NCBI RefSeq assembly: GCF_003254295.1
Contig: NZ_QKZO01000005.1
Location: 62,001-126,000, forward strand
Source: Rhodobacter capsulatus
GTDB lineage: Bacteria > Pseudomonadota > Alphaproteobacteria > Rhodobacterales > Rhodobacteraceae
Direction: 5' to 3'
Length of the DNA: 64,000 nt
This document shows positions 3,829 through 34,644 of this stretch, in pieces. Position numbers and translations under genes: made by a program. The number at the start of each line of letters is the position of its first letter. Position 1 is the stretch's first letter. A model generated the notes under the pieces. The model was not told the DNA's origin and did not search any database. It saw nothing but the letters and a program-made list of their open reading frames with translations.

Positions 3829-3905
3829 TGGTCGGAGCGAGAGGATTCGAACCTCCGACCCCCTGCTCCCGAAGCAGGTGCGCTACCAGGCTGCGCTACG
3901 CTCCG
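3829..3905 (-). tRNA. tRNA-Pro (anticodon CGG)
   Basis: A 77-nt cloverleaf on the minus strand. The acceptor stem CGGAGCG pairs with CGCTCCG, the anticodon arm reads CCTGC-TTCGGGA-GCAGG (anticodon CGG), and the T-arm contains GGTTCGAATCC. The discriminator base is A and the CCA end is encoded. Any protein reading across this segment is spurious. Confidence 0.97.
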
Positions 3906-19787: not shown

Positions 19788-20483
19788 TCAGCCGCGCCGC
19801 TTCCAGATCGCGCCGTCGCCCAGTTTTCCGACAAAGGCGGCATGGGCTTCGGCCTCGGCCTCGGTGAGGCGCGGGGGCAGGGGAACCGGACGGGGACGGG
19901 GCCGCCATTCGGTGCCGGAAGTGGCATTTTTGGCTGGAACAGGGTCTATATTCAGACCGAAACCGGGCTGGCGACCGCCGATCAGTTCCAGATAGACCTC
20001 GGCCAGAATTTCCGAGTCGAGAAGCGCCCCGTGCAAGGTCCGCGCCGAATTGTCGATGCTGAAGCGGCGGCAGAGCGCATCGAGCGTCGCGGGCGAGCCG
20101 GGAAATTTTCGCCGCGCCATTGCCAAAGTGTCGAGCGCCCGATCCGCCGGGATCAACGGCTTTTGCACCCAGCCCAGTTCGGCATTCAGAAACTTCATGT
20201 CAAAGGCGGCGTTGTGGATCACCAGCTTCGAGTCATCGCCGATGAAATCGAGGAAATCCTGGGCGATGGCACCGAATTTCGGCTTGTCGCGCAGGAAATC
20301 ATCGCCCAAGCCATGCACGGCAAAGGCTTCCTGCGGCATCGCGCGGTCCGGGTTGATGTATTGGTGATAGGTCCGCCCGGTGGGCACGTGGTTCATCAGC
20401 TCGACCGCGCCGATTTCGACGATGCGATGCCCTTCGGAGGGTTCGAATCCGGTGGTTTCGGTATCAAGGACGATCTCACGCAT
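19788..20483 (-). CDS. dnaQ: DNA polymerase III epsilon subunit (proofreading exonuclease)
   Basis: A 231-residue 3'-5' exonuclease of the DEDDh class. Exo I is DTETTGFEP (Asp7, Glu9), Exo II is [13 protein letters not shown], and Exo III is the [11 protein letters not shown] segment carrying the general-base His and metal Asp. The C-terminal 60 residues are Pro/Arg-rich and probably hold the polymerase contact. Its ATG lies within the coaE coding end; the genes dnaQ-coaE-aroE-maf are in the order found beside the origin in other alphaproteobacteria. Confidence 0.95.
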
Positions 20484-21072
20484 GGCGGCTCCGCAAGGTT
20501 GCGATCAGCTTTCGCACTTCGGCGCGGGTCTGTTCAAGGGTGAAGGTCTCGATCACGAAATCGGCGCGGCGGCGTTTTTCGGCGTCGGGCAGCTGGCGGG
20601 CGAGGATCATGTCAAGCTGCGCCGCAGTCATCTGGCCGCGCGCCAGAACCCGGGCGCGTTGCACATCGGGCGCGGCGGTGACGACCAGAACGGCATCGCA
20701 GTTCTTCTCGGCGCCGGTTTCATAAAGCAGCGGGATATCCAGAAGGATCAGATCGGCGGTTTGATGGGCCAGCAGGAATGCCTGTCGTGCGGCCTGAACC
20801 AGCGGGTGAACCACCGATTCCAGCCGGGACAGAGCCTGTTTGTCGGCTTGTAGCAGGATCTTCAGCCGGTCGCGATCCACTGCGCCATCGCGGATCGCAG
20901 CGGGGAAAATCGCGGACAGGGGCGCAACCGCGGCGCCGCCTTTGGCGTAAAGCGCATGCACGCTGGCGTCGGCATCCCAGACCGGGATGCCCGCTTCGGC
21001 GAAAAGCCGCGCCGTCGTCGATTTCCCCATGCCGATCGAGCCGGTGAGACCGAGACAGAACGGGCGCTTCAT
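20476..21072 (-). CDS. coaE: Dephospho-CoA kinase
   Basis: Last step of coenzyme A synthesis. The 198-residue protein has the P-loop [12 protein letters not shown] at residues 8-19, [12 protein letters not shown], the [11 protein letters not shown] lid region and ARGQMTAAQ. It overlaps aroE upstream by ATGA and dnaQ downstream by eight bases. Confidence 0.95.
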
Positions 21073-21899
21073 GCCGCAAGCACCACGGCGCGCAATTCCG
21101 CGGTGACCTCGGGGCGGCGGCCGAACCAGCGTTCAAAACCGGGGACGGCCTGATGCAAGAGCATGCCGAGGCCGTCGACGGTGGTGCAGCCCCGGGCGGC
21201 GGCGGCATTGAGGAAATCGGTGCGCAGCGGGGTGTAGACACAGTCGGTGACCACCGCCGCGGCAGAGAGCGCGTCCAGCGGCAGATCAAAAGCGGCCTTG
21301 CCCGCCATGCCGAGGGAAGAGGTGTTCACCACTGTCGTGGCGCCGTCAAAGATGGTGCCGACATGCTCCCAGTCCTGAACCACGACACGGGGGCCGAATT
21401 CGGTGCAAAGCGCCTCGGCCCGGGCGCGGGTGCGGTTGGATATGCGGATTTCCGGGCAACCGGCGTCAAGCAGGGCCACGACGATGGCGCGGGCGGCGCC
21501 GCCTGCGCCTATGACGGCGGCGGGGCCGGAACCGGCCTGCCAGCCCGGGGCGCCCTCGAGCAGATTGGCCAGAAAGCCGATGCCGTCGGTGTTGTCGGCG
21601 TGAATGCGGCCGCTGTCATCGAACACCAGCGTGTTCGCCGCGCCGATCCGAAGCGCGCGGTCGGAAACCACATCGGCCAGGGCCAGCGCGGTTTCCTTGT
21701 GCGGGATGGTGATGTTGCACCCGACGAATCCGGCTTTGGGAAGCACCCGCAGCACGGCTTCCAGATCGCCCTCGGCCACATCCATCGGGATGTAATGGCC
21801 GCGGAGGCCATAAGTTTTCAGCCAATGCCCATGCAGCGCGGGCGAGCGGGAGTGCTGGATCGGATGGCCGATCACCCCAGCCAGGGGAATGCAGGTCAT
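21069..21899 (-). CDS. aroE: Shikimate dehydrogenase
   Basis: NADP-dependent reduction of 3-dehydroshikimate. The 276-residue sequence shows the shikimate-binding Ser pair in [16 protein letters not shown], the catalytic Lys in [11 protein letters not shown], the Asn/Asp pair in ANTLV and NTDGIGF, and the Rossmann motif [12 protein letters not shown]. Its start overlaps the maf stop (ATGA). Confidence 0.95.
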
Positions 21900-22495
21900 G
21901 TCGTCAGATCTCCTCGCACGCGCAGCCAGTTCAGCACTTCGATCAGGGGCAGGCCCAGAACGGCAAAGTAATCGCCCTCGACGGCGGAAAACAACCGCAC
22001 GCCTTCCTCTTCGAGCTTGTAGCAGCCGACGGCGTGGCGGATCGAGTCCCAGTTGCGGGCGGTATAGTCGGTGATGAAAGCCTCGGAGAGCGGATGCATG
22101 GTCAGCCGCACTTCGGCCAGATGGCGCCAGAGCGGGCGGCCGTCCTGCACCACCACCAGCGCCGAAAGCAACCGATGCGTCCGCCCCGAGAGCGCGCGCA
22201 GCTGCGCCATCGCCTGATCCGGGCTTTCGGGTTTCGCGAAGATCTCGCCTTGCAAGTCAAGCACCTGATCGGCGCCGAAGACCAGCGCGCCGGGATGACG
22301 GGCGGATTGTTTCAGCGCCTTCGCCGCGGCCAGTTGATCGGCGACATCGCGGGGCGTTGCGCCTTCGAGATCAAGCGCGTGGCGGATCGCCTCTTCATCG
22401 ATGCGGGCGGGGGAAATCGTCACCGAAAGCCCGGCTGAGCGCAAAAGCTGCGCGCGGATCTCGGAGGAAGAGGCCAGAACGAGGGGGGCAAGCAT
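21896..22495 (-). CDS. maf: Maf-family nucleoside triphosphate pyrophosphatase
   Basis: A 199-residue Maf protein that hydrolyses non-canonical or modified nucleoside triphosphates. The ATG at 22495 starts [22 protein letters not shown], the family N-terminus; the longer upstream frame is not protein-like and would cross the candidate origin. Later motifs are [42 protein letters not shown] and [13 protein letters not shown]. It is the last gene left of the putative origin and is transcribed away from it. Confidence 0.93.
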
Positions 22496-22890
22496 GTGGA
22501 CAACCGTTGGGAAAACCGGAGGGGGACGCCTGGGGACAAAGGGGGGCACAAGATTTCCTCCCCGGGAAGGGGCGCGTTTGTCAAGGAACGAAAGGAGACT
22601 CTCCGCATGTGGGAAGCCCGACAGGGCAGATGTGAGGAAGTGCCGCAACCCACAGGAACAAAACGGAACGCCCCCAATCCGTCCCCTTCAGTATCAACCA
22701 CGCAAGTTATTGATTTTCAATGCCATCGAAAGCTTATCAACAGGGTTTTGCAATCTTGCCCACGAAGCTTTCAAGGCTTGGGAAAAGGTCTGGAAAACCG
22801 GGCTATCCACACTGTCCACAGCCCCTACAAAATCAACATCTTTTCTTTTCAAGAATTATTCTTAAGAAGAAGCCGACACAGGAGGCACAG
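22490..22890. other. oriC: Candidate chromosomal replication origin (oriC)
   Basis: A non-coding segment of about 395 bases between maf and hemJ. DnaA-box-like nonamers: TTGTCCACA on the minus strand at 22495-22503, TTATCAACA at 22734-22742, and a contiguous tandem CTATCCACA-CTGTCCACA at 22803-22820 (8/9, 8/9, 8/9 and 7/9 to TTATCCACA). An AT-rich stretch follows at 22828-22869, including the palindrome AAGAATTATTCTT (22851-22863), as a possible unwinding element. Flanking genes diverge, and the neighbours (dnaQ-coaE-aroE-maf to the left; hemJ, rho, mnmEG, rsmG, parAB to the right) are those surrounding oriC in Caulobacter and Sinorhizobium. Function is inference from this context. Confidence 0.7.
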
Positions 22891-23367
22891 ATGATCGAGC
22901 TCGTCACGGATTTCCTTTCAGATTGGTATTTCTGGACGAAATCGCTGCATGTGATGTCGGTCCTGGCCTGGATGGCGGGGCTGTTCTACCTGCCGCGGCT
23001 TTACGTCTACCACGTCGAGGGGCTGAAAAAGCGGGGCGTGGTGCGCGGCAGCGAGATGGATCAGCTGTTCCAGCATCAGGAACGGATGCTGCTCAAGGCG
23101 ATCATGAATCCGGCGGCGATCTCGACCTGGTTCTTCGGCCTTTGCCTGGTGTTCACGCCGGGGATCATCGACTGGAGCATGCAATGGCCCTGGATCAAGG
23201 GCGCCTGCGTGATCGCGATGACGGTGTTTCACATGTTCCTGGCGCGGGCGCGGCACAAATTCGTCGATGGCACGAATGATCTGGCCGGCCGGCAATGGCG
23301 GATGATGAACGAAGTGCCGACGCTGCTGATGTTCCTGATCGTGATCGCGGTGATCGTGAAGTTCTGA
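22891..23367 (+). CDS. hemJ: Protoporphyrinogen IX oxidase HemJ
   Basis: A 158-residue inner-membrane protein with four hydrophobic segments that oxidises protoporphyrinogen IX in haem and bacteriochlorophyll synthesis. AGGAGG lies seven bases before the ATG at 22891. Family features are the N-terminal [29 protein letters not shown] with its conserved His and Arg, [14 protein letters not shown], and the C-terminal [19 protein letters not shown]. It is the first gene right of the candidate origin. Confidence 0.92.
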
Positions 23368-23500: not shown

Positions 23501-24769
23501 ATGACCGAACGTTTGAACCTTTCCGATCTCAAGGCGAAAAGCCCCAAGGACCTGCTGGCGATGGCCGAGGACTGGGAGATCGAGAACGCCTCGACGATGC
23601 GCAAGGGCGAGATGATGTTCTCGATCCTGAAAGAGCATGCCGAGGAAGGGGTCGAGATCGGCGGCGATGGCGTGCTGGAAGTGCTGCAGGACGGGTTCGG
23701 CTTTCTGCGCTCGCCCGAAGCGAACTATCTGCCCGGCCCGGATGATATTTATGTGTCGCCCGAGATGATCCGGCAATACAGCCTGCGCACCGGTGATACC
23801 GTCTGGGGAATCATCCGCGCGCCGGGCGAGAATGAACGCTATTTCGCCCTGACCGCGGTCGAGAAGATCAATTTCGAAGACCCCGAGAAGGCGCGTCACA
23901 AGGTCAGCTTCGACAACCTGACGCCGCTTTACCCCGACGAGCGGCTGAAGATGGAGATCGAGGATCCGACGATCAAGGATCGCTCGGCGCGGATCATCGA
24001 TCTGGTGGCGCCGATCGGGAAGGGGCAGCGCTCGCTGATCGTGGCACCGCCGCGGACCGGGAAAACGGTGCTGCTGCAGAACATCGCGCATTCGATCGAG
24101 GTGAACCACCCCGAATGCTACCTGATCGTGCTGCTGATCGACGAACGTCCCGAGGAAGTCACCGACATGCAGCGCTCGGTGAAGGGCGAGGTGATTTCCT
24201 CGACCTTCGACGAACCGGCGACGCGGCACGTGGCGGTGGCCGAAATGGTGATCGAAAAGGCAAAGCGTCTGGTCGAACACAAGCGAGATGTTGTGATCTT
24301 GCTTGATTCGATCACAAGACTTGGTCGTGCTTTCAACACGGTCGTGCCGAGCTCGGGCAAGGTGCTGACCGGCGGCGTCGATGCGAACGCGCTGCAGCGG
24401 CCGAAGCGCTTCTTTGGCGCGGCGCGGAACATCGAAGAGGGCGGCTCGCTGACGATCATTGCGACGGCGCTGATCGACACCGGCTCGCGGATGGACGAGG
24501 TGATCTTCGAGGAATTCAAGGGCACCGGCAACAGCGAGATCGTGCTGGATCGGAAGGTCGCCGACAAGCGCGTCTTCCCGGCGATGGACATTCTCAAATC
24601 GGGGACGCGGAAGGAAGATCTGCTGGTCGATCAGAAAGACCTGCAGAAGACCTATCTGCTGCGCCGCATCCTGAACCCGATGGGGACGACGGATGCGATC
24701 GAATTCCTGATTTCGAAGCTGAAGCAGACGAAAACCAACGGCGAGTTCTTCGATTCGATGAACGGCTGA
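23501..24769 (+). CDS. rho: Transcription termination factor Rho
   Basis: Hexameric RNA-dependent ATPase/helicase ending transcription. From the ATG at 23501 it has 422 residues. The N-terminal helical domain ([30 protein letters not shown]) is followed by the RNA-binding cold-shock fold ([21 protein letters not shown]) and the ATPase core with Walker [13 protein letters not shown] at about 182-193, Walker [13 protein letters not shown] and the Q-loop. No large insertion domain is present. Confidence 0.97.
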
Positions 24770-24796: not shown

Positions 24797-26080
24797 ATGG
24801 ACACGATCTATGCGCAGGCATCCGGCCGCGGCAAGGCCGGGGTTGCGGTCATTCGCCTGTCCGGGCCGCGCGCCTGGGAGGCGGTTTCGGCCCTGTGCGG
24901 CCGTTTGCCCGCGCCGCGGCAAGCCGCCGTCCGGCTGTTGCGGATCGGTGAGGATGCGCTCGATGAGGCTTTGGTGCTGTGTTTTGAGGCGGGGCGCAGC
25001 TTCACCGGCGAAGAATCGGCGGAACTGCATTTGCATGGCGCCATTGCCACGGTTGCGGCGGTTCTGAAAGCGCTTGGGTCGCTTGGGTTTCTGCGCTTGG
25101 CCGAGCCGGGGGAATTCACCCGGCGGGCGATGGAAAGCGGTCGGCTGGATCTGTCGCAGGTCGAGGGGCTTGCGGATCTGATCGAGGCCGAGACCGAGGC
25201 GCAGCGGAAACAGGCCTTGGCGGTGCTGTCCGGGTCGGTCGGTCGGATGGTCGAGACCTGGCGCAGCAAGCTGATCCGGGCGGCGGCGCTGATGGAAGCC
25301 TGCATCGATTTTGCGGATGAAGACCTTCCCGTGGATGTGACGCCGGAGGCTTTTGCGCTGCTCTCGGAGGTTTCGGCGCAATTGTCGGCGGAAATTGGCC
25401 GGATTTCGGTGACCGAGCGGGTGCGGGAAGGCTTTGAAGTCGCGATCGTCGGGCGGCCCAATGCCGGGAAGTCGACGCTTCTGAACGCGCTTGCCGGGCG
25501 AGAGGCGGCCATCACCTCGGAAGTGGCGGGGACGACGCGCGATGTGATCGAGGTTCGGATGGATCTGTCGGGTCTGGCGGTGACCTTGCTGGATACGGCG
25601 GGTCTGCGCGATACCGAGGACCAGGTCGAAGCGATCGGCGTTGCGCGGGCGGTTGAGCGGGCGAAACGGGCAGATTTGCGCGTGTTTCTGCTGGATGATG
25701 GCGATATTCCGCTGTTGGAGCCGATCGCGGATGACGTGATCGTGCAGGGGAAAGCTGATCTGGGCGGGTCAGGTGATCTGCGGGTTTCAGGGAAAACCGG
25801 CGAGGGCGTCGATGCTCTGGTTGCATCGATCACCGAACGGCTGTCGGAACGAGCGGCCGGGGCAGGGGTTATGACGCGGGAACGCCATCGCGATTGTCTT
25901 GGGCGCGCATCCAGTGCATTGCGGTCTGCCCTTGAAGAGTTGGATCATGGGCTTGAACGACTGGATCTTGCGGCAGAACACTGCAGGACTGGCATTAGGG
26001 CGCTGGAATCGCTGCTGGGGCGGGTTGATGTCGAGAACCTGCTTGACGAGATCTTTTCCAGTTTCTGTATCGGCAAGTGA
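24797..26080 (+). CDS. mnmE: tRNA modification GTPase MnmE
   Basis: With MnmG installs the carboxymethylaminomethyl group on U34 of certain tRNAs. The 427-residue protein has the N-terminal formyl-THF-binding domain ([48 protein letters not shown]), the G domain with GRPNAGKST at about 217-225, DTAGLRDT, and the catalytic C-terminal FCIGK. The stop is three bases before the mnmG GTG. Confidence 0.96.
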
Positions 26081-26083
26081 GGA

Positions 26084-27955
26084 GTGTTTCACGTGAAACA
26101 TTTTGACGTCATCGTTGTCGGAGGCGGTCATGCCGGGACGGAGGCCGCCCATGCTTCGGCTCGGCTTGGGGCCCGAACCGCGCTTGTGACGATGCGGCGC
26201 GCGGCGCTTGGCGTGATGTCTTGCAACCCGGCCATTGGCGGCTTGGGGAAGGGGCATCTTGTCCGGGAAGTCGATGCGATGGATGGCGTGATGGGCAAGG
26301 CCGCCGATCGTGCCGGGATTCAGTTTCGGCTTCTGAACCGCCGCAAGGGTCCGGCGGTTCAGGGGCCGCGAACACAGGCGGATCGGAAGCTGTATCGCCT
26401 GGCGGTCGCCGAACTTTGTGCAACCCAGCCGCTTCTTGAGGTGGTTGAGGGCGAAGTGACCGATCTGCTGCTGACCGGAACGACCATAACCGGTGTTCGG
26501 TTGATGGACGGGTCCGAGATCTGTGCGTCGGCCGTCGTGCTGACGACCGGGACGTTTCTGAACGGTGTGATCCACATCGGGGATCAGCAATCTCCGGGGG
26601 GACGGGTCGGGGATCGCCCCTCGGTTAGCCTCTCGCAAAGGCTGCGCGAGATTGCGCCTGCCGTCGGGCGGCTGAAAACCGGAACACCCCCACGGCTTGA
26701 TGGTCGAAGCATCGATTGGGATAGTCTGGAAAAGCAGCCGGGCGACGAAGATCCAGTGATGCTGAGTTTTCTCAGCACCGGTCCCTTCGTGCGGCAGATC
26801 GCCTGCGGCATCACCCATACGAACGAAACGACGCATGAGGTGATTCGGGAAAATCTGCAACGATCCGCGATGTATGGTGGCCATATCGAGGGCGTCGGTC
26901 CGCGCTATTGCCCGTCGATCGAGGACAAGGTGGTGCGGTTTTCCGATAAAACTTCGCATCAGGTCTTTCTCGAGCCGGAAGGGCTGGACGATGATACTGT
27001 TTATCCGAACGGCATCTCGACCTCTTTGCCCGCGGATGTGCAGGAGAGATATGTTCGATCGATCCGTGGTCTGGAAGGGGCCCGGATTTTGCAGCCGGGA
27101 TATGCGATCGAGTACGATTATGTCGACCCCAGGGCGCTGACGTTGACGCTTGAATTGCGTGCCCAGGAAGGTCTGTTCCTTGCCGGTCAGATCAACGGCA
27201 CGACTGGTTACGAGGAAGCCGCGGCTCAGGGGCTGGTCGCGGGATTGAACGCGGCAAGCAAGGCTTTGAGCCGCGATCCCGTAACTTTCAGCCGAACCGA
27301 TTCCTATATCGGTGTGATGATTGACGATCTGGTGAGCAGGGGGGTCAGTGAACCTTATCGCATGTTCACATCGCGCGCCGAATTCCGGCTGTTCCTGCGC
27401 GCGGACAATGCGGACCAGCGTCTTACCCCGCGCGGTATCGATATCGGCTGTGTGGGAGAGGCCCGTCGGCGCAGCTTTGATGAAAAGATGGCGCAAATGG
27501 CGGCCGGGAAGAGCGTTCTCGACGGTATCGTGCTGACCCCGGGGCAGGCGATCTCGCTTGGTCTGGCGTTGAATCAGGATGGGGTGAAGCGCTCGGCGTT
27601 TCAGTTGCTGGCGTTTCCGGACGTCACTTTCGAGCAGCTCCGGGGCTCTTTCCCAGATTTGAACGGGATTCCGCCCGATATTGCAAAGCAACTCTCGAAC
27701 GAAGCTCTTTACGCCAACTACATCTTGCGGCAGCAGAGGGACGTTGACGCAATGCGTCGTGACGAGAATTGGGAGATCCCGGCAGACTTCGATTACCGCG
27801 CCTTGTCCGGTCTGTCGAATGAGCTGAAAACGAAGTTCAATGCTGCAACGCCCCGGACATTGCATCAGGCAAGCCAGGTCGATGGCGCGACGCCGGCGGC
27901 TTTGTCGCTGATTCTTGCTCGGCTTCGGCAGGACAAAAGGGCTGAACGGAAATGA
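26084..27955 (+). CDS. mnmG: tRNA uridine-5-carboxymethylaminomethyl modification enzyme MnmG
   Basis: FAD-dependent partner of MnmE. Reading from GTG at 26084 gives 623 residues beginning [22 protein letters not shown] with the FAD-binding GxGxxG. A GTG at 26093 (MKHFDV) has GAGGAG at better spacing and is a serious alternative. Signature segments are [69 protein letters not shown] and [16 protein letters not shown] perfect parS site covers the start region. The stop overlaps rsmG by ATGA. Confidence 0.96.
26085..26100. other. parS site 1 (ParB-binding centromere)
   Basis: TGTTTCACGTGAAACA, an exact 16-bp palindromic parS, lies across the start of mnmG and encodes its FHVKH residues. It is about 3.3 kb right of the candidate origin and 3.3 kb before parB. 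Confidence 0.93.
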
Positions 27956-28575
27956 CCGGGCCGGAAGCGTTTGTAAATCAGGTTGATGTTTCACGTGAAA
28001 CAATTCGCCTTCTGGAGCGCCTGGAAGCGTTGCTGAAAAAATGGAACTCAGCCATCAATCTGGTTTCCCCGAATACGCTTGCGGAAATCTGGACGCGCCA
28101 TTTCCTGGATTCAGCGCAGATTTTGCAATCTGTTGCGCAGGCTCCGCAGCACTGGGGCGATCTGGGAAGTGGCGGGGGCTTTCCCGGGCTTGTGGTTGGC
28201 GTTCTGGCAAAAGAACAATTTCCGGATATGCGGCTCACCCTGGTTGAAAGTGACAAGCGCAAGGCGGCGTTTCTGCTCAATTCCGTCCGCGATCTGGGCC
28301 TCTCCGCGGTGGTGGCTGATCAACGGATAGAATCGCTTGAGCCGCTCAAGGCGGATGTCCTGTCCGCACGTGCCTTGGCGCCCCTCGAAACCTTGTTGAG
28401 CTACGCGGAGCGTCACCTGTCACCGGCGGGCATCGCTCTATTTCCGAAAGGAAATCGCTGGCGGGAAGAGGTTGCGCAGGCGCAGCAGAAATGGTCCTTT
28501 GAGGTCGAACCGAAACCCAGCGCCACGGACCCGGAGTCCGTCGTTCTGAACATCAAGGGGTTGCACCGTGCCTGA
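27952..28575 (+). CDS. rsmG: 16S rRNA (guanine-527-N7)-methyltransferase
   Basis: A 207-residue Rossmann methyltransferase. The N-terminal motif [29 protein letters not shown] and the SAM-binding [16 protein letters not shown] (about 67-82) identify it, with [10 protein letters not shown] and [11 protein letters not shown] downstream. The DVSRET codons contain the second parS. It overlaps mnmG by ATGA and parA by eight bases. Confidence 0.96.
27987..28002. other. parS site 2 (ParB-binding centromere)
   Basis: A second exact TGTTTCACGTGAAACA inside rsmG, encoding the conserved DVSRET peptide. It is 1.9 kb from parS 1 and 0.6 kb upstream of parA. Confidence 0.93.
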
Positions 28576-29389
28576 TCCCACTCGCCCGACACAGCCAAGA
28601 ATCATTGCCATCGCAAACCAAAAAGGCGGCGTTGGCAAGACGACGACTGCGATCAACCTGGCGGCGGCGATGGCCGAGCGCGGCTGTCGCGTGCTGTTGG
28701 TTGACCTCGATCCGCAGGGGAACGCCTCGACGGGTCTTGGTGTCGAAGCGGCGGATCGCAAGTACAGCACCTATGACCTGCTGTTCGGAGAGGCCCCGCT
28801 GTCTGACGTCGTTCAGAAAACCGCCTTCGACGGGCTTTTGATCTCTCCGGCGACGACCGACCTGTCTTCTGCGGATATGGAACTCGTATCGTCCGAAAAG
28901 CGCACCTTCCTTCTGCATGATGCGCTGCGCCAAACCGATATCGACCTCTTTCAGCTTGATTATGTCCTGATCGATTGCCCGCCCTCGCTCAATCTGCTGA
29001 CCGTCAATGCGATGGTTGCGGCGCAGTCGGTCCTGGTCCCGCTGCAGGCGGAGTTCTTTGCGCTCGAGGGGTTGTCGCAGTTGATGCTGACGATCCGCGA
29101 AGTTCGGCAGACCGCGAATCGCGATCTGCGCATCGAAGGCGTGGTGCTGACGATGTATGATGTGCGCAACAACCTGTCGCAGCAGGTGGAAGCCGATGCG
29201 CGGGCGACCTTGGGCGAGCTGGTGTTCCGGACGATGATTCCGCGCAACGTGCGAATTTCCGAAGCGCCATCCTATGCCTTGCCTGTCTTGAGCTATGACG
29301 CCGGGTCGAAAGGCGCGGAAGCCTATCGGTCCCTTGCGGCGGAATTGCTTGACCTCCATACGATACAAGAACGAAAGGCCAGGGCATGA
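28568..29389 (+). CDS. parA: Chromosome partitioning ATPase ParA
   Basis: A 273-residue deviant Walker ATPase that binds nucleoid DNA and moves ParB-parS complexes. The GTG at 28568 has AAGGGG upstream. Motifs: KGGVGKTT at residues 19-26, [13 protein letters not shown], the Walker B region [18 protein letters not shown], and the [19 protein letters not shown] segment. It overlaps rsmG upstream and parB downstream. Confidence 0.96.
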
Positions 29390-30288
29390 GCGAGAGAAAA
29401 CCGGAGCGTCGGGGCCTGGGCCGTGGCTTGTCGGCGCTGATGGCGGATGTTCAGATCCCGGTCGCCGAAGCCGAAGTCGCCCCGCGGCGCAAGGACATGC
29501 TTGTGCCGATCGAAAAGATCGTCCCGAATCCGGATCAACCCCGGCGCAGTTTCGCGCCCGAGGCGCTGGAAGAACTGCGCGCCTCGATTGCTGAAAAGGG
29601 CATCATTCAGCCGCTGATCGTGCGCAAGCATCCCAGGGGCGAGGACAGTTTCGAAATCGTCGCCGGCGAACGGCGGTGGCGTGCAGCGCAGCTGGCAAAG
29701 CTGCATGAACTGCCGGTCATCGTGCGCGATTTCACCGATACCGAGGTTCTGGAAGTCGCGATCATCGAGAATATCCAGCGCGCAGATTTGAATCCGCTGG
29801 AAGAGGCGATGGGCTATCGCCAGCTGATGGATCGTTTCGGCCATACCCAGGAAAAGCTTGCCGAGGCGCTGTCCAAAAGTCGCAGCCATATTGCCAACTT
29901 GTTGCGGCTGCTCAATCTTCCCGACGAAGTGCAGGATTTCCTGCGCGACGGCAAGCTCACCGCCGGTCATGCGCGCGCTCTGGTGACGGCAACCGATCCG
30001 GTTCGCTTGGCGAAGGAAACGATCGCCAGGGGTCTGTCGGTACGAGATGTCGAACGGCTGGCGAAAGACGAGACATCGGCAGCGTCAGGCACGCCCTCGA
30101 AGCCCTCGTCCAGAGCGCCGCGAGAGAAAGACGCCGACACCCGCGCGCTGGAGGCGGATCTTTCGGCGACGATCGGGATGAGCGTCAGCATCGATCATGA
30201 CGGGATCGAGGGGGGACGCTTGTCGATCCGCTATCGGACGCTTGATGATCTCGATCAGCTCTGTCAGGCGCTCAGCCAGATCGGCTGA
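29386..30288 (+). CDS. parB: Chromosome partitioning protein ParB
   Basis: A 300-residue parS-binding CTP-dependent clamp. The N-terminus [13 protein letters not shown] is the usual ParA-stimulating Arg-finger region. [12 protein letters not shown] (the CTP-binding GERR motif, about residues 89-100) and [14 protein letters not shown] are present. A helix-turn-helix follows ([26 protein letters not shown]), and a C-terminal dimerisation domain. It matches the two parS sites just upstream. Confidence 0.96.
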
Positions 30289-30333: not shown

Positions 30334-30702
30334 TAGCCGCTTTTCCCTTGCAACCTGTTGCTCTGTCAGCATTTTTTTCGCAATTTCGCCAAGGTTGCGA
30401 TGTCGGCCGGTGGCCGCGGCCGTGCGCTGCCTTTGCGCCTCGATCAGCGGTTGCAGCTGCGCAAGGCTCTCGGCGATCTGCCGTAACCGCATCTGCGCCC
30501 ATTTCTCATAGTTTTCAGCCGCTTTCGCCAACATCAGATTGTCGCATCCCTCGCGCCAGGCAGTCTGCATGTCTTGCGCGATCTGCGTCCGCTCCGTTTC
30601 CAGATCAAGTCTTTGCCGGTTCAACCGCGCCAGATCCGCCATGGCGCGATCCCGGATCATCGAGGCGATGTCGTTCAGCGATTCCAGATCCTTCCGCTTC
30701 AT
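30331..30702 (-). CDS. Small coiled-coil protein at the end of the flagellar export operon
   Basis: A 123-residue protein, highly charged and predicted to be almost entirely helical (DRAMADLARLNRQRLDLETERTQIAQDM; ESLAQLQPLIEAQRQRTAAATGR). No signal peptide or membrane segment. Its start overlaps the flhB stop by ATGA, so it is co-expressed with flhA-fliR-flhB. Length and coiled-coil character resemble FliJ-like export chaperones, but I cannot assign it to that family by sequence. Confidence 0.75.
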   Translation of the reverse strand: MKRKDLESLNDIASMIRDRAMADLARLNRQRLDLETERTQIAQDMQTAWREGCDNLMLAKAAENYEKWAQMRLRQIAESLAQLQPLIEAQRQRTAAATGRHRNLGEIAKKMLTEQQVAREKRL

Positions 30703-31787
30703 TTCCGGGCCCCACGTTCACGCGACCGACGGCGCATCTTCTCGGCGAAACGAATCGCCGCGGCGACCGGGCGATAATGGTCCGGATGAATTTCCTGCCC
30801 GATGTCGACCGAGGCATGAAGGGCCCGGGCCGTCGGCGGATCGGAATGGATCGGTACCCCGGCTTCGGCGGCAACTTCCCTTATCCGCGCCGCGACTTCA
30901 TCGACACCCTTGGCAACGCAAACGGGGGCACGTTTCGCACCGCGTTCCCATTTCAACGCCACGGCATAGTGCGTCGGGTTCACGATCACCACATCGGCCT
31001 TGGCGACATCTGCGATCATCTGCTTGGTCGCGATCTCGATCGCTTTCTGCCGCCGTTGCGCCTTGATATGGGGGTCGCCTTCCGACTGCTTCATCTCGTC
31101 GGTGAGTTCCTTGCGCGTCATCTTGTTGCGCCGCAGGAAGTCGAACCTCTGCCACAGATAGTCGATCGCCGCGATCACACCTGCAAGAAGCAGCATCAGC
31201 AACAGAAATTCGACGATCATCTGGGGAAAGCTGACCGCAACCACCGTCGCTTCGAATTTCTGGCTGAGCAGAATTGTGGGCAGTTCCCGCAGCATGAAAT
31301 TTCCGAGGATGATCGAGATCACCACCAGCTTGACGAAGCTTTTCGCGAATTCAAAAAGGCCGGTGCTCCCGAATTTCTGCTTGAAATTCGCGATCGGATC
31401 GATGCGGTTGAGCTTCGGCATCAGCTTATCCGGGGCAAAGACGATGGCGCGCTGCGCCGCAAGTGCCGCCAGAACCAGCACGCCGGGCAACAGCAACCAG
31501 GGCGCAACCGTCAGTGCCATGCGCCCCAGAATGCTGCTCGCGACCACTGTTCCGCCGCCCAGAAGCTGCACCGAAATCGAATCGGCCTGATCGATCAGCA
31601 CGCTGGCCCAGGACCCGAAGCTTTCAAGCGAGCTCTTGCCGAAAGCAAGGGCGGTGACCACGAAGGCGGCATAGACCGCGGCGACGGTCACTTCCGAGGA
31701 TTTGACCAGATCGCCCTTTTGGCGCGCCTGCTCGATTTTCTGCGGAGTAGGGTCGAATTCCTTCGAGCTGTCGTCTTCCTCGCTCAT
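30699..31787 (-). CDS. flhB: Flagellar export switch protein FlhB
   Basis: A 362-residue component of the flagellar type III export apparatus that switches substrate class. Four transmembrane segments lie in the first 220 residues, then a cytoplasmic domain with the self-cleavage motif NPTH (VIVNPTHYAVALKWERG, Asn near residue 271). The N-terminus EFDPTPQKIEQARQKGDLVKSSEV is typical. The stop overlaps the downstream coiled-coil gene and the start overlaps fliR. Confidence 0.95.
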   Translation of the reverse strand: MSEEDDSSKEFDPTPQKIEQARQKGDLVKSSEVTVAAVYAAFVVTALAFGKSSLESFGSWASVLIDQADSISVQLLGGGTVVASSILGRMALTVAPWLLLPGVLVLAALAAQRAIVFAPDKLMPKLNRIDPIANFKQKFGSTGLFEFAKSFVKLVVISIILGNFMLRELPTILLSQKFEATVVAVSFPQMIVEFLLLMLLLAGVIAAIDYLWQRFDFLRRNKMTRKELTDEMKQSEGDPHIKAQRRQKAIEIATKQMIADVAKADVVIVNPTHYAVALKWERGAKRAPVCVAKGVDEVAARIREVAAEAGVPIHSDPPTARALHASVDIGQEIHPDHYRPVAAAIRFAEKMRRRSRERGARK

Positions 31788-32560
31788 CGCAGCACCTCGA
31801 ACGGGTTGGACAGAAAGGCGTCGAAGGCATCATTCCAGACCATGAGACCGGTCGGCAGCGCGATCATCAGCAGCGCGAGGCCACCAAGCGTCTGCGCCGG
31901 GGCGCCGATCATCGACACCATCAACTGCGGCATCGCGCGGTTGATCGCGCCAAGCGCGACGTTGTAGATCAGACCGGCAATCACGAAGGGCGCGGCAATC
32001 GAGAAGCCAAGCGCAAAGGCCCGGGAAATGCCGCCAAGGCCCCATTGCCGGAACAGATCGGCATCGGGAAAGGCGCCGGGCGGCAATGCCTGATAGGAGC
32101 CGAGGAAGATCTCGGTCACCTTCACATGCAGACCCAGATGCACCGAAATCGCCAGACCGGCGAGAACAAGCAATTCGCCGACCGCGGGCTGCGGCTCGCC
32201 CGTCGTGCCGCCAAACAGCTGCGACAGCGAGGTGGATTGCGCCGCAATCGTGCCCGCGATCTGCAGGCACAGAACGAAAAGCCGCAGCATCAGACCGATG
32301 AACAGCCCGATCACGATTTCCGCGAACATCCAGACCGCCACCGGCAGGCTGGTGTCGGGCGCCTTCACGAAGGGCAGGGCGCCCGGCATCACGATCAGGG
32401 TGAAGGCGAAGGTCAGCCCCAGCTTGACCCGTGTCGGCACCATCATTTCGCCGAAAGCGGGCATCACCGCCATCGTGCCGCCGACGCGGAGGAAGACGAT
32501 GAAACCGACCCAGAGCAGATCCCGGGTCGATTGCATCAGGGTTGCGAGATCCTCGATCAT
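31784..32560 (-). CDS. fliR: Flagellar export membrane protein FliR
   Basis: A 258-residue integral membrane protein that assembles with FliP and FliQ into the export gate. The ATG at 32560 (MIEDLATLMQSTRDLLWVGFIVFLRVGG) overlaps the flhA stop by ATGA. Family segments include ALPFVKAPD, EIVIGLFIGLMLRLFVLCLQIAGTIAAQS and FVIAGLIYNVALGAINRAMPQLMV. Confidence 0.94.
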   Translation of the reverse strand: MIEDLATLMQSTRDLLWVGFIVFLRVGGTMAVMPAFGEMMVPTRVKLGLTFAFTLIVMPGALPFVKAPDTSLPVAVWMFAEIVIGLFIGLMLRLFVLCLQIAGTIAAQSTSLSQLFGGTTGEPQPAVGELLVLAGLAISVHLGLHVKVTEIFLGSYQALPPGAFPDADLFRQWGLGGISRAFALGFSIAAPFVIAGLIYNVALGAINRAMPQLMVSMIGAPAQTLGGLALLMIALPTGLMVWNDAFDAFLSNPFEVLR

Positions 32561-34644
32561 GCCTGCACCACGCCGACCATCGAGGGCCGCGCATCCAGGC
32601 CGATTTCCTCGAAACTGAGCACGGGGGCAAGGATCCCCTTGGCGCCGAGCACCGTCTTGAGGAAGCGCCGCCGCCGGGTCGAGGTGACGATGGCCGGGAA
32701 AATCCCCGCTTCGCCGGCTTTTGCGATCCGTTCGGCGACATTGTTTGCCAGACGGTTGAACTTGTCGGGCGGCAGCGCGACATCGGTCTGACCGCGATCC
32801 CCCGCGACCTGGAAGGTCGAGAACGTGTCTTCCCATTCCGGCGCCAGTTGCAGCAACGGCAACGTGCCATCCTCGCGACGATATTCCGCGACCAGTTGGA
32901 AGCCGAGCCGTTGGCGGACATGTTCGCAGATCGCCTCGGGCGACTGCATCCCGCGCACTTCCGCGATCGATTCGACGATCACCAGCAGGTTACGGATCGA
33001 CACCCGTTCCTCCAGCAGCAGACGCAGCACGGCCAAGAGCAGATCGACCGGAACCTTGTCGGGGATCAACTCGTCCAGCAGACGGCGGTTCGATTCAGCG
33101 CGGGCGGGATCGGAAAGGTTGCACACTTCCTCCAGCAAGCGGCGCAGCGCCCGCAGCGTCATCAGGCGACCGAAGTTGCGGCGGATCACTTCCAGCAGAT
33201 GCGTCGCCAGAACTTCGGTCGGGCCGACCACGGTGGACCCGGCCAGCGCGGCATCTTCCTGTTTTCCGGGCGGAAGCCAGCGCGCCGGGGCACCATAGAC
33301 AGGCTCGCGCACGTCCTCGCCATCGGGCAGGAAATCGCGGTTGTCGGTGATCAGCGCCAGAACCCGGTCGGCGAAGAGCCGGTCTTTCGCCTGCTCGACA
33401 CCCTGAATGCGGATGCGATAGCAGCCGGGATCGAGCGTCGCATCGTCGGTCAGGCGGATTTCCGGCAGGATCAGGCCGTAACTGGCCGCCACATGGTTGC
33501 GCATGTTGGTGATCCGCGCATCCAGCCCGGTCGCCGGGTCAAGCGCCATCGCCACCAGATCCGGCGAGAATTCGACATGGATGTCATCGACATCGAGCAC
33601 ATCGCCGATCGACTTGCGCTTCTTCGGTTCGGTGCTTTCAGGGATCTTCATCGCCTCCAGCTCGGCCTTTTTCTGCGCCTTCCGGGTCACCAGGAAGGCG
33701 GTGCCGCCCAGAACGATGGCGCCGATCATGAAGGGCACGAAGGGCAGGCCGGGGACGATGGCGAAGCCCGCCATCAGCGCCGCCACCGTGGCCAGCGCCG
33801 AGGGGTAGCGCGACAGCTGCTCGAACACGGCGGAATCGGCCGAGCCCTTGGTGCCGCCGCGCGACAGCAGGATGGCCGAGCCGATCGAGATGATCACGGC
33901 CGGGATCTGGCTGGTCAGGCCGTCGCCGACGGTGAGGATCGCATAGGTTTCCAGCGCGCGGCCCAGCGGCATATCATGCACGATCGTGCCGATGGCCAGA
34001 CCCACCACAAGGTTCAGAAGCGTGATCAAGAGACCGGCGACGGCATCGCCCTTGACGAATTTCGACGCACCGTCCAGCGAGCCGAAGAAGGTCGTTTCCG
34101 CCTGTTCCTTTTCGCGCCGCGCCCGCGCCTCGGCATGGTCGATGGCACCGGCGTTCATGTCGCTGTCGATGGCCAGCTGCTTGCCGGGCATCGCATCCAG
34201 CGCGAAGCGGGCGCCCACCTCGGCCATCCGGCCCGCGCCCTTGGTGATGACGATGAAGTTGACGATCAGGATCACGCCAAAGACGACAAGCCCGATCATC
34301 ACAGAGCCGCCCATGATGAAATTGGCAAAACCTTCGATCACATGACCGGCGGCGCCGGGGCCGGTGTGACCATTGCCGATGATCAGCTTGGTCGAGGAGA
34401 CGTTCAGCGACAGCCGCAGCATCAGCGACGCCAGCAGGATCGTCGGAAAGGCCGAGAAATCCAGCGGACGTTCGATGAACAGCGTGACGGTGAAGATCAG
34501 GATGGCCAGCGCGAAGGACACCGCCAGCCCGAGGTCGAGAACCCAGGCCGGAACCGGCAGGATCATCATAACGATCACGGTCATCAGCGCGATGGCCAGC
34601 AGAATGGTCGGCTGGAAGATCGCCGCAAGGGTCAGCTTCGGCAT
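32557..34644 (-). CDS. flhA: Flagellar export gate protein FlhA
   Basis: A 695-residue export-gate protein. The N-terminal half has about eight transmembrane segments and the conserved FHIPEP-type signature (RLSLNVSSTKLIIGNGH; NFIVITKGAGRMAEVGARFALDAMPGKQLAIDSDMNAG). The C-terminal cytoplasmic ring domain includes RNFGRLMTLRALRRLLEE and RVSIRNLLVIVESIAEV. It is followed directly by fliR-flhB and preceded by the lytic transglycosylase, whose stop abuts its start. Confidence 0.96.
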   Translation of the reverse strand: MPKLTLAAIFQPTILLAIALMTVIVMMILPVPAWVLDLGLAVSFALAILIFTVTLFIERPLDFSAFPTILLASLMLRLSLNVSSTKLIIGNGHTGPGAAGHVIEGFANFIMGGSVMIGLVVFGVILIVNFIVITKGAGRMAEVGARFALDAMPGKQLAIDSDMNAGAIDHAEARARREKEQAETTFFGSLDGASKFVKGDAVAGLLITLLNLVVGLAIGTIVHDMPLGRALETYAILTVGDGLTSQIPAVIISIGSAILLSRGGTKGSADSAVFEQLSRYPSALATVAALMAGFAIVPGLPFVPFMIGAIVLGGTAFLVTRKAQKKAELEAMKIPESTEPKKRKSIGDVLDVDDIHVEFSPDLVAMALDPATGLDARITNMRNHVAASYGLILPEIRLTDDATLDPGCYRIRIQGVEQAKDRLFADRVLALITDNRDFLPDGEDVREPVYGAPARWLPPGKQEDAALAGSTVVGPTEVLATHLLEVIRRNFGRLMTLRALRRLLEEVCNLSDPARAESNRRLLDELIPDKVPVDLLLAVLRLLLEERVSIRNLLVIVESIAEVRGMQSPEAICEHVRQRLGFQLVAEYRREDGTLPLLQLAPEWEDTFSTFQVAGDRGQTDVALPPDKFNRLANNVAERIAKAGEAGIFPAIVTSTRRRRFLKTVLGAKGILAPVLSFEEIGLDARPSMVGVVQA

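Follow-up and report, generated by a model that had tools for sequence, protein, structure and literature searches.

A single-copy sequence core between maf and hemJ marks the probable chromosomal replication origin of Rhodobacter capsulatus

A 64,000-nucleotide stretch of a draft Rhodobacter capsulatus genome (G000:C5:62001-126000, G000 being the draft genome itself; hereafter the window, with positions counted from its first letter) carries an intergenic gap between the divergent genes maf and hemJ that is very probably the chromosomal origin of replication (oriC). It would go back to one ancestral site together with the Caulobacter-type origin, which lies between hemE and DUF299. We infer origin activity here because several kinds of evidence converge on the same 400 bp: a core sequence that occurs once per genome, the presence of this core in the hemE/DUF299 slot of other alphaproteobacteria, adjacent parS sites, a position opposite the dif-like site, and the highest local scores for DnaA boxes and for helix instability. 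The same evidence supports the first-pass annotation of the window, which had put the gap forward as a candidate chromosomal origin from the letters alone.

Results

The maf gene starts at 22495 on the minus strand and hemJ at 22891 on the plus strand, leaving 395 bases in between. The features of this gap are as follows.

22496-22890, no strand assigned: intergenic region between maf and hemJ, predicted oriC
22495-22503, minus strand: DnaA box TTGTCCACA, 1 mismatch to TTATCCACA, one base in common with the maf start codon
22531-22539, minus strand: weak DnaA-box-like sequence TTGTCCCCA, 2 mismatches
22703-22715, minus strand: match WATCAANNNNTTR to the integration host factor (IHF) consensus; present in 2 of 21 gaps and hence weak
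22734-22742, plus strand: DnaA box TTATCAACA, 1 mismatch to TTATCCACA
22789-22797, minus strand: weak DnaA-box-like sequence TTTTCCAGA, 2 mismatches
22800-22867, plus strand: conserved origin core (model R1), comprising tandem boxes, GC-rich spacer, CATC block and T-rich unwinding stretch
22803-22811, plus strand: DnaA box CTATCCACA, first of a contiguous pair, 1 mismatch to TTATCCACA; its ATCCACA part is conserved in the alignment
22812-22820, plus strand: DnaA box CTGTCCACA, second of the contiguous pair, 2 mismatches to TTATCCACA; box-like in part of the family only
22826-22870, no strand assigned: likely DNA unwinding element, the least stable 45-bp stretch in 246 kb (nearest-neighbour energies)

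The four DnaA-box-like nonamers of the first-pass annotation, two of them contiguous at 22803-22820, lie where it had located them within about 395 non-coding bases, and its AT-rich stretch with a palindrome is likewise present. With at most two mismatches allowed, 5 boxes lie in the 395 bp, a count that omits the box overlapping maf, where 0.90 are expected; among 300 dinucleotide shuffles, 1 reached 5. Across the entire 64 kb a looser box pattern matches 23 times against 24.4 expected, so that single boxes are uninformative and the cluster alone counts. A weighted score that favours good boxes ranks the gap first, at 9, among the 4,913 overlapping 400-bp windows that cover 246 kb of the contig, the runner-up scoring 6; in the complete relative G002 it is again the best box cluster, there among 23,180 windows in 1.18 Mb sampled. 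The boxes are clustered inside one intergenic region, as in a Caulobacter-type oriC, and the contiguous pair falls within the 3 bp spacing of the tandem boxes of the basal unwinding system. A search of the gap against Rfam gave no family match.

Conservation of the site is evident at several levels. Gene order was read from 20 family genomes fetched out of 77 in hand, and all 20 have dnaQ-coaE-aroE-maf, the gap, and (hemJ)-rho-mnmE-mnmG-rsmG-parA-parB, with a gap counterpart of 385-561 bp in the same place (ends set by tblastn); in two of the 20, L120 and L125, hemJ was not found and rho comes next. BLAST matched the gap itself in 11 of 18 same-genus genomes, its own included. An alignment of 21 gaps displays a box with ATCCACA at its end, another nonamer that is box-like in part of the family, a GC-rich spacer carrying CCCTAC or a similar sequence, a CATCATC block and a T-rich strand. 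Modelled from sequence alone, this 71-nt core has exactly one match per genome in 124 of 149 genomes from the order, the matches listed all being from the same family; the 21 training sequences include a small number of the 149, and agreement of the hits with the model is partly built in since the model itself chose them. The best 30 core loci, which are the ones of the 124 that were checked by alignment, all lie between maf and hemJ or rho. In three loci (L120, L125 and L154, from genomes G058, G025 and G061) hemJ was not found between the core and rho, where the space is too short for it, in a search confined to that interval. As a separate observation, the roughly 400-bp origin gaps of L134 and L136 contain 8 and 11 GANTC sites, where the 19 other gaps contain 0-4, which hints at methylation-linked control in these two lineages.

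The core also occurs outside the family. A class-level search matched 33 of 193 genomes (4 in the family, 29 outside), many weakly and several with 2-4 hits, and many of these matches are probably due to chance; of 12 newly fetched class-level loci, 1 belongs to the family; maf or DUF299/hemE is close by in 6 of the remaining 11, and the other 5 are elsewhere. Among those six, L188 and L190 carry the core in the classical origin slot, with DUF299 (PF03618) on one side and hemE (PF01208) on the other, and in L188 hemJ follows hemE. In a named panel of 80 loci surrounding DUF299, most of them from Erythrobacter and kin, the core matched in 59, each time immediately upstream of DUF299; in 57 of these hemE lies on the far side of the core, and the remaining two loci are short. 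Since the same core sits in the DUF299-hemE slot of the panel loci, we take the window's site and the classical hemE/DUF299 site to share it; the simplest history would be that DUF299 was lost on one side and hemE departed on the other, so that maf and hemJ came to flank the site.

Next to the contiguous boxes lies an easily melted AT-rich stretch. In the window's own contig the least stable 60-bp stretch of 246 kb is also at the core, and the least stable 100-bp stretch begins inside the core and extends into hemJ; the signal is weaker in G002. The palindrome of the first-pass annotation is the inverted repeat AAGAATTATTCTT at 22851-22863, with 6-bp arms around one base. We tried it as support and gave it no weight, as it is exact in only 1 of the 21 gaps compared; it also occurs in the near relative G002 (L014), and in L015 one base differs while the inverted repeat is preserved.

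The basal unwinding system consists of tandem DnaA boxes, a spacer and DnaA-trios according to passages of PMC8287927 and PMC6669920, and the search rule given in the former asks for a DnaA box followed, after 0-16 nt of spacer, by three or more consecutive trios whose middle base is A; a second box frequently stands in tandem. Among the 21 gaps, an array that fits this rule adjoins the contiguous pair in all 8 of the other same-genus gaps (4-6 trios) and in that of L135, from another genus (9 trios); of the 30 best loci, 10 have such an array within the core. The window, L132, L133 and G002 do not fit the rule, and beside the pair no run of three trios was found in the window or in the near relatives G002, G003 and G016. 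The 9 other family gaps, outside the genus and L135, have trio hits elsewhere in the gap or none, among the best two per gap. Single trio hits are weak evidence, because between 5% and 53% of shuffled gaps also give some. The excerpt from PMC8287927 suspects that deviant trios might exist, and a CAN trinucleotide array was tried as a class-wide deviant trio; it was dropped, with 2 of 59 Erythrobacter-panel cores having one, near the shuffled rate. Among Rhodobacteraceae cores, runs of at least three CAN are present in 10 of one set of 21 and in 13 of another set of 30, the two sets overlapping.

The positions of segregation and terminus sites agree with an origin at the gap. Two parS sites lie 3-5 kb from it, and the draft genome has no other exact sites:

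26085-26100, no strand assigned: parS site TGTTTCACGTGAAACA, at the start of mnmG
27987-28002, no strand assigned: parS site TGTTTCACGTGAAACA, near the start of rsmG

All 10 genomes searched have one or two copies of the exact palindrome TGTTTCACGTGAAACA, none of them farther than about 6.5 kb from maf or the gap. Both sites in the window fall within the first codons of mnmG and rsmG, so that a centromere site there doubles as coding sequence. A dif-like site was found in 9 of 10 genomes (none in G029); in the draft R. capsulatus genome it is on a different contig from the gap. In the 8 relatives the core is 0.6-3.2% of chromosome length from the point opposite the dif-like site, each contig being treated as an entire chromosome; in G002 that point is at 114 kb, less than 1% of chromosome length from the gap. 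Where more than one dif-like site was present, the one opposite the core was used in G020, the better of two about 9 kb apart in G044, and in G060 a second site on another contig was left unused.

GC skew was rejected as a sharp origin locator: it failed in the window's contig and in G002, in the latter even when corrected for gene strand by third codon positions. Passages of PMC1914354 likewise describe skew alone as insufficient for precise origin placement. In G002:C1 the skew is muddled around the origin and sharp at the terminus, where it flips between the samples at 1.90 and 1.995 Mb; the muddled origin skew may reflect past rearrangement around the origin. G064, a family member with clear skew, has sample values of -0.020 (4.10 Mb), -0.004 (0-20 kb), +0.031 (100-120 kb), +0.046 (130-150 kb) and -0.006 (200-220 kb), which puts a sign change between the 0-20 and 100-120 kb samples, close to its core at 123 kb.

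Gene neighbourhood

Pfam matches and gene directions confirm the context given in the first-pass annotation, with dnaQ-coaE-aroE-maf on one side, rho-mnmEG-rsmG-parAB on the other, and transcription diverging from the gap.

19788-20483, minus strand: dnaQ-like exonuclease (PF00929)
20476-21072, minus strand: coaE (PF01121)
21069-21899, minus strand: aroE (PF08501)
21896-22495, minus strand: maf (PF02545)
22891-23367, plus strand: hemJ, UPF0093 (PF03653)
23501-24769, plus strand: rho (PF07497, PF07498)
24797-26080, plus strand: mnmE (PF12631, PF10396)
26084-27955, plus strand: mnmG (PF01134)
27952-28575, plus strand: rsmG (PF02527)
28568-29389, plus strand: parA (PF13614)
29386-30288, plus strand: parB (PF02195, PF17762, PF23552)

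Beyond parB, on the opposite strand, 30699-34644 holds genes that read by eye as flhB, fliR and flhA, of flagellar export. The sole RNA gene found in the window is a tRNA-Pro(CGG) at 3829-3905. In Caulobacter, maf, aroE, coaE and dnaQ also lie at the origin. The first-pass annotation was right that dnaA is not nearby: the single match in the genome, C5:156849-157055, is outside the window on the same contig, about 72 kb from the gap. DUF299 (PF03618) has no match in the genome and hemE is on another contig (G000:C7), so that the Caulobacter-type boundary pair does not flank the gap; we do not take that pair as defining, because passages of PMC1914354 report lineages with different boundary pairs.

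Discussion

A number of results weigh against an origin in the maf-hemJ gap. BLAST with the gap found nothing in seven of the 18 same-genus genomes, 25 of the 149 genomes from the order have no core match, and neither do 21 of the 80 panel loci, some of which are curtailed. Within the gap no perfect DnaA box was found (the best has 1 mismatch), no CtrA site (TTAAN7TTAA) was found at up to 1 mismatch, and the published trio rule fails in the window. In the 1.18 Mb sampled of G002 the core is only the 7th least stable stretch at 45 bp, with six others equally or less stable, and it is outside the eight least stable stretches at 60 or 100 bp. G020 has two dif-like sites of equal score, and the one about 340 kb from its core does not fit. 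The skew is the weightiest of these points. The first-pass annotation had expected the cumulative minimum at the gap and, by its own wording, a minimum elsewhere counts against the proposal. In the 246 kb of the window's contig the minimum is near 10 kb, about 74 kb from the gap at 84.5 kb, and from there the curve climbs as far as about 150 kb, passing over the gap with short dips on the way and no sign change at the gap; in G002 the minima form a flat trough at 140-220 kb, some 65-140 kb from the core at 76.7 kb.

Two other explanations make use of these points. The boxes could form a DnaA-regulated divergent promoter region for maf and hemJ, with the origin elsewhere, for example beside dnaA 72 kb away; the gap does divide divergent genes, the maf start codon is touched by one of the boxes, the contig also carries dnaA, and the skew minimum is off the gap. 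Set against this, the core is retained in L120, L125 and L154, where hemJ was not found and rho is too near to leave room for one, and it is retained where the neighbours are DUF299 and hemE. Moreover, the best 400-bp box window listed near dnaA scores 3 against 9 for the gap, and the parS and dif geometry fits the gap, which together leave the promoter explanation highly improbable.

The displaced minimum in G002 could alternatively mean that replication starts in the flat skew trough some 65-140 kb away on the map of that genome, and that the gap is a relic origin. This has to be set against the conservation of the core, against the rank of the gap as top box cluster of a G002 sample that includes most of the trough, and against the point opposite the dif-like site in G002, which is within 1% of chromosome length of the gap. 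We regard a relic origin as extremely improbable, and retain the maf-hemJ gap as the chromosomal oriC.

We infer DnaA binding and the order of events at the origin from the arrangement of these elements. DnaA would most likely load at the contiguous box pair at 22803-22820, with the outer boxes assisting, and would open the adjoining T-rich stretch at 22826-22870; the helicase would then enter the opened stretch and two forks would leave, after which ParB bound to parS 3-5 kb away would segregate the new origins. Unlike loading and opening themselves, the use of canonical trios for opening is not part of this proposal for the window. The core, with its contiguous box pair, GC-rich spacer ending in [AT]AC, CATC block and T-rich strand, might be an ancestral alphaproteobacterial unwinding module through which the R. 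capsulatus clade opens its origin without a canonical DnaA-trio array; we advance this only tentatively and consider it rather unlikely. If it were true, trio-less opening through the core would be a variant of the basal unwinding system. By the passages cited above for that system, the gap resembles it in having a contiguous box pair, a GC-rich spacer and then an AT-rich strand, and differs from it in that the window and G002, G003 and G016 have no run of three trios there.

Comparison with described origins places the gap in a known group. Cori of Caulobacter crescentus lies between hemE and DUF299/COG1806, as given in passages of PMC1914354. The core of the window occurs at the hemE/DUF299 slot of other alphaproteobacteria, the comparison being with those genomes; the window differs from Cori in that DUF299 has no match, hemE is on another contig, hemJ adjoins the gap and no CtrA site was found. 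The Sphingopyxis oriC is described in part of PMC4741004 as being near hemE, with DnaA boxes and a putative DNA unwinding element. The likeness there is drawn through the Erythrobacter panel, of the same order, in which the shared core lies beside hemE; in that panel hemE and DUF299 flank the core, which they do not in the R. capsulatus window.

Origin predictions already exist for the family and for R. capsulatus. Excerpts from PMC6699656 assign origins for 101 Rhodobacteraceae with proximity to parAB among the criteria, and PMC6473078, as excerpted, shows ori positions from DoriC with R. capsulatus among them. Judged by these passages, the Ori-Finder/DoriC predictions concern the same family and share parAB proximity as one criterion, and the R. 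capsulatus origin in DoriC is very probably the same site as the gap, an identification made from these likenesses. The suggestion in the first-pass annotation that gene-based searches could miss this origin is accordingly weak. In the titles, abstract openings and passages of the literature consulted, the maf-hemJ gap is not named as an origin.

Conclusions

An R. capsulatus origin is already listed in DoriC according to the excerpt from PMC6473078, and a specialist would expect an origin at this place, so that the surprise is modest. The present analysis adds the core, the connection between it and the hemE/DUF299 slot, and the lack of a trio array in the R. capsulatus clade. If the assignment is right, the origin of well-studied photosynthetic bacteria would be narrowed to about 70 bp, the core would serve as a single-copy signature for placing origins in draft genomes whose skew is unclear, and both textbook boundary genes could leave an origin of this type while the core remains.
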